Assembly (NCBI GenBank): GCA_025765615.1
Contig: JAIVFJ010000020.1
Coordinates: 62,001 to 126,000 of the forward strand
Length of the DNA: 64,000 bases
Direction: 5' to 3'
From: Zopfochytrium polystomum
Taxonomy: Eukaryota; Chytridiomycota; Chytridiomycetes; Chytridiales; Chytridiaceae
Position numbers and translations under genes: made by a program. Positions 28,094 to 39,928 of the stretch are shown here, piece by piece (the first letter of the stretch is position 1; every line of letters begins with the position of its first letter). The notes under the pieces are model-generated. The model was given only the letters and a program-made list of their open reading frames with translations, was not told the DNA's origin and searched no databases.

Positions 28094-29050
28094 ACAGTGC
28101 GGGACAAGAAGAATATACAAACGCGCAATTAGTAGCACTCACAAACGAACTACTCCGCCAAAAGTGCATCCCCCGACAAATGGAGAACGTTACCATCTTC
28201 TCCTCATCAAGAAGAATACAATGACGTTGAGCTTTTTGCAATTTGACTGATTCCACTAGAGTAGTTCACACAGTAAGTCTGTTAGTGAGGTGACTTGTCA
28301 CACTAATTGGCCTGAGAAAAATTGGCGCTCCCCCAATTAGTAAAAAAAACAATACAGGCATGATTAGAATGCCAGGAATGAGTAGCACACATACGTGGAA
28401 AGAGGGGATAACGGATGCTTAATAGCAGAAGGAGGAAGGGCACAGTGGCGGCAGGGCAGTGGACAAGCTCCCAAAAGTAATGACCAAAAACGAAAAAAAA
28501 TTTTGGACAATGCCTGCAACAAGAAGAGCAAAGCGAACAGCAGCGGTGATGGAGTCGCAGCAGGCTGCGAGGGAAGCTCTCTTAGAATTATGCAGATACC
28601 CTGGCACTTCTGAGGATGGTGACTCAAGCTCAGATCTGTTTGAGAACGCTCCCTTCCCAGCTCAGATGAGGACCCATCATACACCGATGGACTTTCAGAC
28701 GACAACGAAACGGATTTCAAATGCGATAGCAACGAGGATGGGTCAAGAAAATTGGCGCACTTGATCGATGGTTTTTTTTTTTTTGTTCGGAATCATGCAC
28801 AACCCGCAACAACGATGACATCCCGCTTTGGAAGTGGGGGGTGTTGACTTGGCAAACAAAAAGATTTCATGGGTGGGAAGGTTTTGTGCCATTTGTATAT
28901 TCTTGTTGTCCCGCACTGTACCAACAAAACTATCCCCATTCTTCCACTTTTGGCGAACACATCTGGCAGAAGCGATCTCATTCAACGAGAAAGACAAACT
29001 GGCACCCTCACACAGAAATCTGACACTGCACCAATGCTGGTTCATGCCAT
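28094..29050. other. Transposon-like remnant with a 28-bp inverted copy
   Basis: The 28-bp segment at 28094-28121 reappears inverted at 28892-28919 with one mismatch. The right copy lies in a minus-strand coding-like stretch (VRQKWKNGDSFVGTVRDNKN, then KAGCHRCCGLCMIP) at 29045-28760 with a Cys-rich end. A + strand coding-like piece (RAKRTAAVMESQQAAREALL) lies at 28530-28700. This suggests a decayed DNA transposon; the family is unknown. Confidence 0.35.
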
Positions 29051-29139
29051 TCCAATTTTCAGGACAGTGGCAATCCCAAGTGTGACCCTCTACTTGCTAA
29101 GTACTTATCAATTCTTACTATCTTGCATCGAGAAACATA

Positions 29140-29213
29140 GCTCTGTTAACTCAGTTGGTTAGAGTGTAGTGCTAATAACGCTAAAGTCACAGGTTCGATC
29201 CCTGTACAGAGCA
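29140..29213 (+). tRNA. tRNA-Ile (AAT)
   Basis: Acceptor GCTCTGT/ACAGAGC is perfect, anticodon loop CTAATAA gives AAT, T arm is CAGGTTCGATCCCTG, and discriminator A. No intron. Confidence 0.95.
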
Positions 29214-29582
29214 TTCTTTCGCTTCTTTCCGTCGTTGTTTCACCCTCGTGTATCTTTCAGAGTGTTTGCAAATCAAACAATTTCAAATTTTCTGTGCGGT
29301 GAGCGACCACTGTGCTGAACCACACGCCCCATCGTGAAAAATGACGTTGGAGTTGTGCAGTAGCTCACAGCGAGGTTGATTCACAACAAACCACAGGTGG
29401 GGAAGAAAAAAAAGAAAAAAGTCAGCATGCTTCTGGTTCCCACAGTCAAAAGCATTTTTTCTTTTTGCAATACAACACAGTAGTCGTGAAAAATACAATC
29501 CCCACCATCAGTAAAATCTGTTGTCCTCTCTATTGTGCAGGTGTGCAAGGCATGCAAAGGCGACAATTGCTAATTGGCAAAA

Positions 29583-29654
29583 AGGCCGCACCCGGAATCG
29601 AACCGGGGTCCCCAGAATCAGAATCTGATGTGATAACCCCTACACTATGCAGCC
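29583..29654 (-). tRNA. tRNA-Gln (CTG)
   Basis: Acceptor GGCTGCA/TGCGGCC (one wobble), D stem GTG/CAC, anticodon stem TCAGA/TCTGG with loop TTCTGAT giving CTG, and T arm CCCGGTTCGATTCCGGG. A T run follows directly and could end Pol III transcription. Confidence 0.95.
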
Positions 29655-30010
29655 GATGAACTACGGTTGATGTATTTTAAAGTTATTTCGAACAGTTGCA
29701 GCCTCGGGGATTTTCTCTTTCATTCTTAAAACTTGCCTTTTTTGGGAAAAGCGTGCGACGCGAACTGCGACATGTCAAGAGGCAGCACCTATAAAAACGG
29801 CCCTCTCCCCTCGACGCTCTTCACATCCCACAGCCCAACCTTCTTTCCCAGGTCGCTCGACCTCGGCTGTCTCTTGTTTCAAAGACGTCGCTGAGGCCGA
29901 CAACCGTTCATTGGCACCGCACTTTATTTCCTGATTGCTTGGAATCCCTCCTCTGATCACGATCTCCAGCCCGTATTTCCCCTTCCATCCAACCCGTCCA
30001 CCTTACACCC

Positions 30011-32667
30011 TATGAGGTCGAAAAACAAGTCCTATCCATGGCTATCGTTCGCAAATCCAAGACATTGATGGCTCGTTGTCGATAACCTCACTGGCGCTTC
30101 TTTTCCGTTCGTCTCGTTTAAGCGTCGCCCATATGAGGACGAAAAACAAGTCCCAGCCGCCTTTATCTCAATCAGCCGCTGGGACTTGGTTTACTGAACT
30201 CAGCTGGAGCGGTTTTTTTCCAACTGTATTATCGCCTACTTTGAGCGATTGCCCATCGGTAAAACGACCTTTTCAGCTCCTGCATATCGCGACCGCTATG
30301 AGATCGAAATCAAATCCTAGTCGTGGAACTGAATAGTTCCACCGTTCGGATTTGCTCACCGACCCTCACTGCGCAGTTTTTCAGTATTCCCACTATTCCC
30401 TTCGTGATGAACGCCCCTTTGCCAACCCTTTCTGCCTCCCTTCTTCGTCTTTTTGACTCGCCCATATGAGGTTGAAAACAAGTCCAAGCCGCGATGCTGT
30501 ATAATCGTCCACTGGCCGCTTGGACTTGTTTGCTTCTCTCGCTTGGAAAGATCGCTCAGATGCTGTCCAACTCTCCGTACATAGGGATATAAATTCTATG
30601 AGGTCGAAAACAAGTCCTAGCCGAGGAGCTTATCGCACCACTGCTCGGGTTTTGTTTTCTTCCCTCACCGACTTTACCTCTCCTCTTCCCCCACCCAACC
30701 TATCTTTTTGCATTAATGTACGCTGAATCTATGAGGTCGAAAACAAGTCCTAGCCGTCTTGTCCTAGACAATCCTGCTCGGACTTGCCACCTCCTCTCAC
30801 TGGTTGATTAGCTTGGGGCCTTCGACTCCTATGCTGTCCTATGAGGTCGAAAACAAGTCCTAGTCGTAGTGGTTCAAACCACTACTGCCCAGGCTGGTTA
30901 TTCTTCCTTCACTGGATCATCTCAGCCACCACCTCGTATCTGAGCGACGCCGTTGAATGAAGCAAACCGCTCGCGATTGCTCCTCGCCATCAAGTGACGC
31001 GCACATCACGCTATTTGTTTTCTTCGTTTATGAGGTCGAAAACAAGTCCTAGCCGCTGAGCAATCGCTCTACCGCTGGGATTTGCCTCCGATCCTCATTA
31101 ATGGACTCATCCTTTGTTGCCGCACTCTATAATTCCACGACCTATGAGGTCGAAAACAAGTCCTAGCCGAAAAGCGCAGCTAGCGTGGGACCGCTGGAAC
31201 GTGTTTTCACTCTCACTGGTCACGCACAGTGAAACGTTAGTGCGATCCATTCCATGAGTTCGAAAACAAGTGTCGCGGACCCAAAAAGTTCCATCGTTAG
31301 GATTTGCTCATCAACCTTCAATGGGTTAGTGACCCCGCCGTTACCGGAGTGATGAGAACTCTTTCCTTTGTTCTGCCTCCTAACACACCAATATGAGGTC
31401 AAAAACAAGTCCTAGCCGCGGTGCCGGACAATCGGCCATCTCTCCGCTCGGACTTGTTTTGCTTTTCTCACTTTGAGGGATAGCTTATATCCCGTCCAAC
31501 TCTCCGCACCTGCGAATACAACCTCTATGAGGTCGAAAACAAGTCCTAGCCGAGGAGCTGATCGCACCACTGCTCGGGTTTTGTTTTCGATCCTCACTGA
31601 GTGTCTTCTCCCGCTCGATCTATCATTTCATTTATGAGATCGAAAACAGGTGCCAGTCGAAGCTGCCTACGCGCTGCCGTTGCCGTAGGGATTCTGTCCT
31701 TCTTCCTCATGCCATTAGAATAATCGCTTCGCTCCGCTTTCATCACCTCCCCTGATGTATCTCCATTATCGCACATTGTTGAAGCATAAACGGTCACACT
31801 TACAGTTCGCTCATCAGTATCCCTCACTTCGATTGACGGCGTTGCCCTGTCGAAAACAAGTCCCAGTTGGGCTGCGTGCTGTGCCACAAGGGCTGGTTGA
31901 TCTTCACTCATTGGATGCGCTTCGAGTTCTGAGCGATGCCGTTGAATAGAAACTACAGCAAGCGGCTTGCGTTTGCTCTTCCGCCTTCAATTGACGTGCA
32001 CAGCTTGTTGTCGCATCATTTTTGAGGTGGGGAACCAGTTGGAGCCGCTGATCTTTGCCTCCGATGCTCACTTGCATGCCCTCAGCCCAAACACCGTCTT
32101 TCCACGACCTATGAGTTCGAAAACAAATCCTAGCAGAAAAGCGCAACTCTTGTAGAACCGCTGGAACCTGTTCTCGCTCTCACTGGTCTCGTAAAGTGAA
32201 ATTTTTGGTGGAATTCATTCTGCGAGGTCGAAAACACGTCCAACCGGAATTCTTGGTGCCTTCTGGTCGGGCTTGCTTCTCGCTCTCACCGAATTACGGC
32301 ACCCTTGAACTGAGCATTAATGATCAAACTGAGGTCGAAATCTGCAGCAACGACGTCAAATCGTTAGCACTAACGAGAGCTTCTTCGGAGGACCGTCCTC
32401 CGGTTTCATTCTTTTCTGCATTGCGTGCCCTATCAGGTCGAAAACAAGTCTTGGCCGCGTGCGCTCTTTTTACTCCCGCTGCTCGGACTGCTCTCTTCTC
32501 TCATTGATCAATCACACGCCACTCTGCGCCACACTTTGATTCCAGTTTTGTTTGTCATTGCATCCCTCCCTAATTTTACGTGTTTGCTTACAATCCTATG
32601 AGGTCGAAAACAAGTCCTAGCCGTGCGTCTTTCGCGGCACCGCTCGGGCCTGTTTAAATCCTCACTG
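30011..32667 (+). repeat. Array of about 20 hairpin-forming elements, seven-unit higher-order repeat
   Basis: Units begin near 30011, 30132, 30297, 30465, 30597, 30730, 30840, 31029, 31143, 31253, 31392, 31526, 31633, 31849, 32031, 32110, 32221, 32329, 32431 and 32597. Those at 31849, 32031 and 32329 are degenerate. The typical unit has TATGAGGTCGAAAAC, then CAAGTCCTAGCCG, a variable 15-30 nt insert, ACCGCTCGGACTTG, a short spacer and CCTCACTG. CAAGTCC.AGC pairs with GCT.GGACTTG. The base between is T opposite C in most units, but C-G at 30132, A-T at 30465 and T-G at 31029, as expected for a conserved stem. TGAGG can pair with CCTCA to close the unit. Many inserts form their own hairpin (TGGAAC/GTTCCA at 30297; GTAGTGGTT/AACCACTAC at 30840). 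The strand shown is arbitrary. No protein is encoded; the product or role is unknown. Confidence 0.85.
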
Positions 32668-33157
32668 CATCGTTTTCTAAACCTTGACGCAGCTTGGGAT
32701 CATGTCAATCCAATACTATGAATCGGGCAGAAATAAATGGGGTTTCGTCAATAAACTGTTTTTGCTTTTATAGATCTTCTTGGTGAATGCTATCTCATAT
32801 TATGGGACGGATGCGATATGTGGCCGACGTTGAAAGTCGCTCGTCTGACGATGCCAGACTCCCGGCAGGCATCGCCAAAAACCGGATGCGGCACTCGTCA
32901 ATTATTACGCGTACCCAGCACTCGCCGCCGCATCCCACAGTTCGTACCATCCTCGAATTATCTTCCACTGCCTCTCCTACAACTTCGGCAAAGCTTCCTT
33001 GCACGCCCAACTAGGTACACATCAAGACTAACAAACAGGGATTGGAATTTTTGAGAAGCCGAAACTAGACCAAAAAAAAGGGTGGCTCATCCAGCAGTTC
33101 AAAAGAAACTACTGGCAGAATGGAAACTCCCAAACCCTGCATTGGCCGTCCTAAAAT

Positions 33158-34190
33158 TTAGGATGCACTCAACAAAATTAGTCCAAGGTCGACACCCAAT
33201 TTCTCGAACTGTCGAACCTTCGTGAACGCGAAGATCTCGGAATTGTCCATTATCAGGACGAGAAGCGTTCCCGGAAGAGTTTCGCTTATATGCCAATCCC
33301 ATACTTCGATGGAGTCATCCCCGAGCAAGGCAAGCCGCTTGTAGTTGAAAGACATGGCTCGAATCGTCTTGAGACCAGTGTTTATAAAAGAATGCCCAGA
33401 ATCAGACGTCTTTACGAGCACCTGTTGCCTAAAGCGAAACTAAACGAAGGTGGACGAACAGAGGCAGAGGTTTGCTGGGTCCGGATGGGCCAATAGAAAT
33501 TGTGCGTAGACCACGACGACACCAATTCGCCTGTTTCCAGAGTGCGCAGGAAAACAGAACTGTTACCGACAAGACATGTATAGCGATCGCCGTGCGCGAC
33601 GAGCGCCTCTACCTTCAAAATTCCACAGCAATTCCCCGTGCCCCGCCGCCACAGCAGAGCCACGTAGACGACAAAGCGGTCAGTCACGTGCACAGACTTG
33701 ACCGCGCCCTGGTGGGCGCTGAGGACCGCCTCGCAGCCTGCACCGTCGACGTTCCACAGCCGCACGATGCGGTCCGCGGAGGCGGTCGCGACGCAGCTGC
33801 CGTCGGGCGAAAAGGCGGCGCACAAGTCGGCGAGCGTGTGGCCGGACAGCGAGCGCACGCGCGGCCAATCGGGCGCCGAGGAAGTTGACGCCGCCTCCGG
33901 GGCGCGACGCGGTGAGGATCCAGTCGGGCGAGACGGCGACGACCGTCTGCGTCGCTGATCGTGTGCATCGTAACTGCGGGGCGGCCGTCCTTCCAGCGCT
34001 TCTCCAGCTTCACCCAGTGCTCGTACATCAGGCGCCAGTTGCGGTCGAAATGGCTGGCCGCGGCTGGCCGGCGGCTGAGGAAGATCGGGTGCCACAGCAC
34101 GGGGTATGCGGCGCGGACGAACCAGAAGCGCGATGTGCACGCGACGCGCGATTTTTCCAACACCTGCGCCCGCAGCCGCAAGAATTTTTT
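33158..34190 (-). CDS. F-box/WD40-like protein with frame breaks
   Basis: Minus-strand order: an F-box-C-terminus-like stretch (SRFWFVRAAYPVLWHPIFL, then NWRLMYEHWVKLEKRWKDGR, about 34130-33970), a first blade in another frame (TVVAVSPDWILTASRPGG, about 33950-33890), then a clear WD repeat in a third frame (LCAAFSPDGSCVATASADRI, then VRLWNVDG) and HQGAVKSVHVTDRFVV. A downstream exon, 33421-33158, carries IRAMSFNYKRLALLGDDSIE followed by VWDWH. The architecture fits an F-box/WD40 SCF adaptor, which would select ubiquitination substrates. The two frame changes in the GC-rich part have no splice sites and look like indels or decay. The F-box N-terminus was not found. Splicing between 33590 and 33421 is tentative. 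Confidence 0.5.
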
Positions 34191-38313: not shown

Positions 38314-38701
38314 ATCTGGCTGGAAGATGCACAAAACTTGAAAAATTGGTAAAAAACGAGAAGTTTTGTGTGAAAAAAGAAACAGATTGATTCCCGTTTT
38401 TATAATGAAAAAAATGACACTCAAAAAAACCGAGCAGCGCACAAAAAAGGAGACAGCACGTGCTGAAACAAAGACCGCATTTGCTCAAAAAGAAATTTAA
38501 GAACGACAGCACATACGACCAAAAGAAACAGAGGTATTAGTAAGAGGGTGTTTCAAGTGGCGATCCCAGTAAATTCTTTTTTTCAGGATCAAAAAATGAT
38601 TGGTTGAAAATCTTATCCTGGAAAATGTTTCCGGGATTTCTCAAATCCACCTCCCGCAGGTGGATTTTTCAAATCCCAGGAAAAGAAAGCAGGAAATCGC
38701 A

Positions 38702-39928
38702 ATGAATTTGCGAACAATCGCTGCCGTTGTTGCTGCTACTTCAGGCGCTGCACTACTCGGACTCAGCGCCACAGCCGCAGCCTTGGCCGATGGTCGATCA
38801 CATCGAGCACCTCGCACCAACAAGTGGTCCAGTCGATGTACGGCGTGGTTTGATGTTGAATCTGATGCTCGGTACGACAATGGCTGGTATTACGACCAAT
38901 TCCGCTGCAGCCGCGCCTCCTTTGACCAGATCGCAGCTGCAATCGAACAGAACTGGACACGTTGTCACCCATTGCCTGAATTAAATGCAGAGTTTGACAT
39001 CCGTCATCGAACGGCAGTAACGATGCACTATCTATGCCATTCTGGATCGCTAGTAGAGTCCGCAAGCGCCTTCGGGATGTGTAAAGCGTCGGCGTCTCGC
39101 TACCTGTGGGAGGTGATTGATGTAATCACCTCATCGTTCTCCCAGATTGCTCTACCCAAAACCCCAGAAGAGTGGCGCAAAACAAGGGATGGTTTCCAAG
39201 CGATCTGTGGGTTTCCAAATGCCTACCTTGCAATCGATGGTTCCTTGTTTGAGATTGAGCGGCCTCACGTAAGGTGCAACCAACTCCTTCTTTTTTATCA
39301 ACTTCTGATGGATGCCCTTCTCCAGGATTTTGAGGGTTGGTACTGCCGCAAGTCGTACCCTGCGTTCAACGTGCAGTTTGTCGTGGATCATCGCAAGCGC
39401 ATTCGGGACTACGACATCCGAGCAGGGTCTGCAAACGACAAGCAGATTTTCAACAACTCCATCTTCGGGCAGACAATCCATCAACTCCTCCCTCAAGGTG
39501 GGCACATCCTGGCTGATGCTGGTTATGCTCTGATGTACCATGTTATGACCCCATACTCGATTGAGGAGCACATGAGCCGTGATCACCGGCACTACAATTA
39601 TTTGCATTCAAAGACGAGAATCACCATTGAGGGGGCTATCGGTATTCTCAAAGGTCGTTTTCGGATTTTCCAGCGCCCACTGAACATGCACAGCCATGTC
39701 GTTGACAATGTACAATATTCCGCAACGCAAAATATGGCGAAGTTGATGGAGGCCTGCTTCCAACTGCATAATATCCTTATTGACCTCCGCGACGATTACC
39801 CTATCATCCCTTTTCAAGAGAATGTTGAAAGGGAGGAGGAAGAGGTTGCTGTTGAGCGAAACAACGTCGTTGTTGGGCGGGTGGCCATTCTGAAACGAGA
39901 TGCTATCAAAGATTATTTGGCCCAGTAA
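38702..39928 (+). CDS. Harbinger transposase (HARBI1-type DDE nuclease), 408 aa
   Basis: An intronless frame. I prefer the ATG at 38702 (MNLRTIAAVVAATSG) over an upstream start that reads through TIR-proximal sequence. The DDE triad is visible in the usual contexts: YLAIDGSLFEIERP (first Asp), GGHILADAGYAL (second Asp) and ITIEGAIGILKGRFRIF (Glu). The characteristic YDIRAGSANDKQIFNNS lies between, and NMAKLMEACFQLHNIL near the end. The N-terminus has a helical, HTH-like domain (TVTMHYLCHSG...GMCKASASRYLWEV). The family cuts and pastes the element with the help of a Myb/SANT partner encoded next to it. The tail is acidic and no defects are seen, so the element may be active. Confidence 0.93.
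   Translation: MNLRTIAAVVAATSGAALLGLSATAAALADGRSHRAPRTNKWSSRCTAWFDVESDARYDNGWYYDQFRCSRASFDQIAAAIEQNWTRCHPLPELNAEFDIRHRTAVTMHYLCHSGSLVESASAFGMCKASASRYLWEVIDVITSSFSQIALPKTPEEWRKTRDGFQAICGFPNAYLAIDGSLFEIERPHVRCNQLLLFYQLLMDALLQDFEGWYCRKSYPAFNVQFVVDHRKRIRDYDIRAGSANDKQIFNNSIFGQTIHQLLPQGGHILADAGYALMYHVMTPYSIEEHMSRDHRHYNYLHSKTRITIEGAIGILKGRFRIFQRPLNMHSHVVDNVQYSATQNMAKLMEACFQLHNILIDLRDDYPIIPFQENVEREEEEVAVERNNVVVGRVAILKRDAIKDYLAQ

Follow-up and report, generated by a model that had tools for sequence, protein, structure and literature searches.

Large clusters of hairpins that belong to one microRNA family are known from animals, such as miR-430 of zebrafish and C19MC of primates. In the primary microRNAs of animals and plants the lower stem is longer than 4 bp. 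A microRNA precursor is expected to pair about 15 to 16 or more bases of its mature arm with the opposite arm, and a 5′ U and a loosely paired 5′ end govern which strand becomes the guide. Papers on microRNAs reportedly also exist for Amoebozoa and Sphaeroforma.

In fungi, a re-analysis of mi/milRNA hairpin loci covered 41 species, which, in the accessible part of the article, almost all belong to Ascomycota or Basidiomycota and otherwise include some Glomeromycota and Microsporidia (PMC9757828). The top loci in that part have fewer than 20 nt between the two duplex strands, and a search of its text for the terms chytrid, cluster, polycistron and tandem gave no occurrence. As far as the accessible parts of two further articles go, fungal Dicers have been surveyed with 19 Chytridiomycota proteomes included (PMC12663654), and double-stranded RNA was purified from Zopfochytrium polystomum WB228 in a mycovirus survey (PMC7482067). 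Among the matches listed from the open-licence literature, no title dealt with microRNAs of Chytridiomycota or with the array described here.

The array lies in a 64,000-nucleotide stretch of the Z. polystomum genome, referred to here as the window. We put the probability at roughly two in three that its primary transcript is a polycistronic precursor in a microRNA-like (mi/milRNA) chytrid gene family.

Results

An array of 18 structured units. A covariance model run with filters off over positions 29000 to 33500 of the window gave 32 matches, of which 18 were in the sense orientation (E ≤ 0.0017) and 14 were weaker antisense matches to the same hairpins. The sense units are about 85 nt long (Table 1), and the original prediction of about 20 copies in 2.65 kb was thus close. 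A conserved 20-mer matched 15 times in the window with up to three mismatches, compared to 0.00 matches expected from shuffles. The spacing from arm to arm ranges from 107 to 267 bases, and the linkers between units are pyrimidine-rich (30% C, 31% T). The exact 21-mer of the conserved arm (see below) is present in 7 of 15 scored units, and the array in the window is partly decayed. Coding capacity, which had been predicted to be lacking, is slight: the spacings of the units are not multiples of three, and only three ATG-initiated open reading frames of at least 60 amino acids overlap the array, the longest (105 amino acids) on the opposite strand.

Table 1. Features of the hairpin array and its surroundings (positions in the window)
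Feature	Position	Strand	Evidence
tRNA-Gln gene on the opposite strand, 68 bases before the promoter element of the array	29583..29654	-	
Promoter element CTCTTAAAACYTGCCNTTTTNGG, one mismatch here	29723..29745 (C20:91723-91745)	+	genome motif search
TATA box TATAAAA, 221 bp before first unit	29790..29796	+	sequence
Presumed pyrimidine-rich 5′ leader, 39% C, 29% T	29820..30004	+	start inferred from TATA box
Hairpin array, 18 units	30005..32672	+	covariance model
Unit 1, first-unit type with inner arm TATCCAYGGC; start of conserved arm at 30011	30005..30098	+	E 2e-8
Unit 2; conserved arm from 30132	30126..30210	+	E 3.2e-14
Unit 3; arm from 30297, compensated G:C to A:T	30291..30376	+	E 2.2e-16
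Unit 4; arm from 30465	30459..30549	+	E 1e-16
Unit 5; exact 21-mer 30597-30617	30591..30675	+	E 3.1e-19
Unit 6; exact 21-mer 30730-30750	30724..30807	+	E 1.2e-18
Unit 7; exact 21-mer 30840-30860	30834..30919	+	E 2.9e-16
Unit 8; exact 21-mer 31029-31049	31023..31105	+	E 8.2e-19
Unit 9; exact 21-mer 31143-31163	31137..31223	+	E 1.1e-16
Unit 10, decayed	31247..31328	+	E 6.9e-6
Unit 11; arm from 31392	31386..31478	+	E 5.9e-17
Unit 12; exact 21-mer 31526-31546	31520..31604	+	E 3.8e-19
Unit 13, decayed	31627..31717	+	E 0.0017
Unit 14, decayed	31842..31918	+	E 1e-4
Unit 15; arm from 32110	32104..32190	+	E 4.8e-13
Unit 16	32215..32296	+	E 7.3e-11
Unit 17	32425..32511	+	E 5.6e-10
Unit 18, last-unit type (by eye also in other arrays); exact 21-mer 32597-32617	32591..32672	+	E 9.7e-18
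Internal higher-order duplication, ~930-970 bp, 75-85% identity	30437..30671 / 31364..31600; 31133..31234 / 32100..32201		
Two AATAAA, possible polyadenylation signals (weak)	32732..32755	+	motif scan
Open frame of 442 aa with DDE_Tnp_4, DDE_Tnp_1 and Plant_tran transposase domains, which we take to be Harbinger-like	38600..39928	+	

Structure and covariation of the hairpins. From the outside inwards, each unit consists of a variable, covarying 4-bp closing stem, a UA/CU internal loop, the pairing UGAGG/CCUCA, an asymmetric loop, the stem CAAGUCC-U-AGC with GCU-C-GGRYUUG, and a variable, covarying inner hairpin. Reading of the sequence confirmed what had been claimed for individual copies, namely that the usual mismatch within the stem is replaced by C:G at 30132, A:T at 30465 and T:G at 31029, that the fourth stem pair changes from G:C to A:T at 30297, and that TGAGG can pair with a distal CCTCA. 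A covariation test on 48 aligned units gave 150 double-change cells, compared to 66.2 (standard deviation, 7.7) in shuffles. The covariation score in these units was 0.293 versus 0.149 (standard deviation, 0.008) when shuffled, and at most 0.092 when the partners were slid; by a weaker measure, 13 pairs showed a double change versus 10.6 in shuffles, a level that was reached in 28 of 500 shuffles.

This alignment (A1) was derived from 162 units, of which 158 had a usable length, 69 passed filters on arm mismatches, stem pairs and likeness, and 48 of the 69 were aligned; the filters favor the closing stem and the arm. Because the 48 rows had been pre-filtered for closing-stem pairs, the closing stem was retested without a stem filter in 52 units of 126, which were chosen by an 18-nt core and a 3′ motif, with look-alikes removed. 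Positions 1 to 4 of the closing stem were paired in 92, 71, 58 and 63% of the 52 units versus 60, 59, 38 and 40% in shuffles (z, 3.2 to 6.9), and position 5 had no excess of pairing (40 versus 40%; z, 0.0). Among the same number of units, the minimum free energy of the hairpin had a mean z score of −4.4 and fell below −2 in 49 of 52. On average 16.3 of the 21 arm bases were paired, and at least 15 were paired in 47 of 52 units, which is the extent of arm pairing expected of microRNA precursors.

One strand is constant and its partner drifts. Located between the closing stem and the inner hairpin, the 21-nt 5′ arm UAUGAGGUCGAAAACAAGUCC has a mean variability of 0.125 bits per site and no site above 0.28 bits in 81 units. 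This absolute conservation is flattered by the training of the model and the alignments, for which the units used had few arm mismatches. Specifically, the model (R1) was built from A1, and alignment A2 therefore leans towards R1. The 81 units were drawn from 121 model matches in 11 sources after 2 antisense and 38 near-identical rows had been dropped. In this set the six columns before the arm vary by 1.30 to 1.98 bits, with 1.35 bits at the base directly before it; the four columns after it vary by 0.70, 0.19, 0.73 and 1.01 bits, and weaker conservation extends beyond the 21 nt to about base 27.

On the 3′ side, the 15 paired partners of the arm vary by 0.81 bits on average and retain pairing, with G:U pairs and mismatches. 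The comparison of one strand with the other should be less affected by the training bias than is absolute conservation. If structure alone were preserved, both strands would be expected to vary alike; this is the case in the closing and inner stems, the two sides of which vary about equally, but not in the middle of the hairpin. A constant 21-nt strand with a partner that is free within the limits of pairing, and a free loop, is characteristic of a microRNA gene family, in which the mature arm is more conserved than the opposite arm and the loop, as found here (inner-stem columns 35 to 39 vary by 1.46 to 1.93 bits). The conserved block is 21 nt long and its 5′ edge is sharp; a product of 20 to 24 nt with a precise 5′ end is a prediction from the DNA. 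The first base of the arm is U. Of 52 units, 43 had fewer paired bases at arm positions 1 to 4 than at positions 16 to 19, 9 had the same number and none had more. A 5′ U and such a loosely paired 5′ end are the features of a guide strand. About 32 nt separate the two strands of the duplex.

Covariation, the retest of the closing stem and the difference in variability between arm and partner support the earlier view that selection acts on a structured RNA rather than on plain satellite DNA. The original prediction described the array correctly, and it missed the extension of the closing stem by 4 bp further out, the constant sequence of the 5′ arm and the existence of many arrays.

Other classes of structured RNA. 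An Rfam scan of the window returned only tRNAs at the gathering score, none of them inside the array. In a permissive scan of the array all matches were far below the cut-off; the best of them, at 27.7 bits versus a cut-off of 57, was to mir-1788 on the opposite strand, and the snoRNA Afu_304 matched with 19 bits versus 35. The earlier statement that no tRNA, snoRNA or hammerhead rule fits is in line with these scans, in which the array resembles no other described structural RNA. C/D and H/ACA snoRNAs were rejected, as no Rfam snoRNA reached the gathering score and no such boxes were seen in the consensus, and the hammerhead and other described self-cleaving ribozymes were rejected for want of any Rfam match.

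Units might instead be excised as stable structured RNAs of about 85 nt, an undescribed guide or regulatory class that forms without Dicer processing. Discrete domains with a 4-bp closing stem would suit such RNAs, and the polycistronic layout resembles that of fungal snoRNA clusters. However, no Rfam family except tRNA was found at the gathering score, and hundreds of copies of one sequence are unlike guide RNAs, whose guides differ. We regard this explanation as quite improbable. Self-cleaving ribozyme repeats, one of the options originally proposed, are without support and can be set aside almost entirely: although the units are repeated and structured and contain GAAA within the conserved arm, no hammerhead core was seen in them by eye, and a catalytic core would be expected to fix both strands, which leaves the constant arm with its drifting partner unexplained.

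A genome-wide family of arrays. In the 80.16-Mb assembly there are at least 26 arrays with 225 units, haplotype copies included, when a unit is defined as a sequence within four mismatches of the 21-mer on the 26 arrays that were fetched; the array of the window is on contig C20. The exact 21-mer is present in 152 of the 225 units and in the 26 arrays, which have from 2 to 22 hairpins each. The 20-mer TATGAGGTCGAAAACAAGTC had 207 matches in the genome at up to two mismatches, compared to 2 for its reversed control. The search for the family among eukaryotes covered this genome, and the exact 21-mer gave no stretch in viral contigs or prokaryote genomes.

When arrays at least 85% alike over half their length were merged, the 26 arrays collapsed to nine groups, with the array of the window standing alone. 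Several pairs of arrays are 96 to 99% identical and may be haplotypes. Near-identical pairs on different contigs comprise many arrays and a Dicer gene; the assembly may partly contain both haplotypes. Alignable stretches between groups are mostly 65 to 80% identical, yet the 21-mer is constant. As judged by eye, the types of first and last unit recur across diverged arrays, and because these types are shared the arrays probably descend from one ancestral array. The array at C145:108600-110600 is decayed and has two sense matches to the model and a stretch that resembles a leader.

Promoter element. A genome search with the element CTCTTAAAACYTGCCNTTTTNGG that allowed up to two mismatches gave 18 matches, compared to 1 for the reversed control. 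All 18 are on the strand of an array and lie about 200 to 613 bases before it, so that 18 of the 26 arrays are served. The eight arrays without a match are on C36, C115, C154, C298, C340, C341, C419 and C642; three of them, on C298, C340 and C419, start where the contig does. A strict pattern placed a TATA box before the first listed unit in 13 of 25 entries, and at least 6 more were recognized by eye; the boxes mostly lie about 150 to 380 bases before that unit. In 18 of 25 entries an AATAAA or ATTAAA lies no more than 900 bases beyond the last listed unit, and in 13 of 25 no more than 255 bases beyond it, which is only modestly above chance, as about one-third of 900-base stretches are estimated to contain such a hexamer by chance. 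We infer that the arrays are transcribed by RNA polymerase II.

The arrays could also be considered a functionless satellite or a mobile hairpin repeat that spread by duplication. Arrays do duplicate as blocks, as in the internal duplication of about 930 bp in the window; many are near-identical, some of them probably as haplotype copies, and the one on C145 has decayed. This view leaves unexplained the covariation, the recurrence of first-unit and last-unit types between arrays (by eye), and a 21-mer that stays constant in arrays that otherwise differ. The promoter element, matched at arrays only, and the TATA boxes further disfavor the structured satellite that had been put forward as an option. 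Satellite DNA was also rejected as a class on the irregular spacing of 107 to 267 bases, uneven conservation and absence from the output of Tandem Repeats Finder. Thus, we consider a functionless repeat very improbable.

A second subfamily. A search with partial complements brought to light a second arm, UAUGAGGUCAAAACAAAUCUU, on an array on C38 and C480. The second subfamily comprises seven sense matches to the model on the C38 stretch that was fetched and one hairpin on C2. Its arm has nucleotides 1 to 9 in common with the main-family arm and is exact in seven of the eight units, with an extra A in the other; the inner hairpins differ. By eye, the 3′ arms read AGATTTG or AGGTTTG in six of the eight units versus GGRYTTG in the main family. 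This change is compensatory, in a stem that keeps its 5′ strand almost constant within the main family. A version of UAUGAGGUCAAAACAAAUCUU with one mismatch is present on C29, C148, C155 and C193, and a search with the arm of the second subfamily also gave matches on C104, C179 and C273. At C29:104950-105180 the one-mismatch arm lies in a similar hairpin and is followed shortly by AATAAA.

A family of long noncoding RNAs, in which the repeated hairpins are protein-binding sites of a multivalent scaffold or decoy and a protein reads the constant strand, would account for the layout of the arrays, in which pyrimidine-rich linkers connect domains that are each self-contained, and for copy numbers of 2 to 22 per array. 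The UA/CU loop and the adjoining UGAGG/CCUCA are fairly conserved on both strands, and such an RNA could also fix one strand. However, three features are not predicted by it: a 21-nt block whose edge separates a paired but variable base from a constant one, a stem in which one strand stays constant and the other drifts, and a second subfamily with a different constant 21-mer. In addition, C2 and C29 have one hairpin each, within only the 251 and 231 bases fetched. Protein binding is the main rival explanation of the arrays, and it seems unlikely.

Small-RNA machinery and a possible mechanism. Five matches to the Piwi domain were found on four contigs, with two of the matches spanning a stop that an intron might explain, and neighboring frames on C107 encode the PAZ, linker 2, Mid and Piwi domains of an Argonaute. 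Two distinct genes encode a double RNase III. The first is on C1 and recurs almost unchanged on C615; the second, on C30, includes a Dicer dimerization domain. The genome thus encodes Argonautes and Dicers, whose role in the arrays is predicted from the presence of the genes.

Among the three options originally offered, a cluster of small RNAs from one precursor fits best and is favored. In the microRNA-like reading, RNA polymerase II would produce one long RNA per array, which would fold into hairpins, and Dicer-type cuts would release the 21-nt 5p strand from them. This strand, with its 5′ U and loosely paired 5′ end, beginning UAUGAGGUC, would be loaded into Argonaute, and the many hairpin copies would provide dose. 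The closing stem of only 4 bp and the long span between the duplex strands count against this reading, as do the weaker conservation out to about base 27, the partial decay of units in the window and the eight arrays that lack a match to the promoter element.

Near-perfect targets were not found above chance outside the arrays with two strict anchored and two wobble complement patterns. Two examined off-array sites were left, on C54 and C221, which is about the chance level (by our estimates, up to ∼0.9 sites for the first strict pattern and ∼0.45 for the second wobble pattern). The first wobble pattern had 22 matches versus 9 for its reversed control, and the match on C38, once followed, led to the second subfamily. 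As candidate targets, the complement matches on C38 and C480 were accordingly rejected, as was the one on C145, which turned out to be the decayed array. The C54 site is inside an open reading frame with LisH/CTLH domains. Located downstream of an ATG101-like gene and with an AATAAA about 200 bases further on, the site at C221:18603 pairs with arm bases 3 to 20, with two G:U pairs.

Discussion

The array appears to work like a polycistronic microRNA family, with membership in that class putative. The evidence is evolutionary, in that many natural variants of the hairpin reveal the strand that selection has preserved, and it points to a single 21-nt sequence, in a single species, that can be tested. 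We lean slightly towards the broader proposal that Chytridiomycota possess a true microRNA system, with a promoter-bearing gene family, one 21-nt seed family, polycistronic arrays with more than 200 hairpins, and subfamilies that have the first nine bases in common. If true, this would add another branch to the independent origins of microRNAs, provide an example among fungi of a high-dose cluster made up of one family, and place microRNA-like evolution, with constraint on the mature arm and radiation of the family, in an early-branching fungus.

The tandem structured repeats, pyrimidine- or U-rich linkers and long RNA are also features of the repeats of roX and Xist. In those RNAs the repeat is a protein site, whereas here one 21-nt strand is constant and its partner drifts.

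The arrays are like miR-430 and C19MC in having many tandem hairpins of related seed, with putative long transcripts and a presumed high dose. They differ in kingdom, in forming many dispersed arrays and in their 4-bp closing stem. That the subfamilies share their first nine bases is as in animal microRNA families.

As in the fungal mi/milRNA loci described in the accessible part of PMC9757828, there is a hairpin precursor in an intergenic location, a presumed product of common size, and Dicer and Argonaute genes. Unlike those loci, the family in Z. polystomum forms long arrays with more than 200 hairpins of one family, with subfamilies that share a 5′ end and a promoter element specific to the arrays, and its duplex strands are about 32 nt apart, compared to fewer than 20 nt in the top loci of that study.
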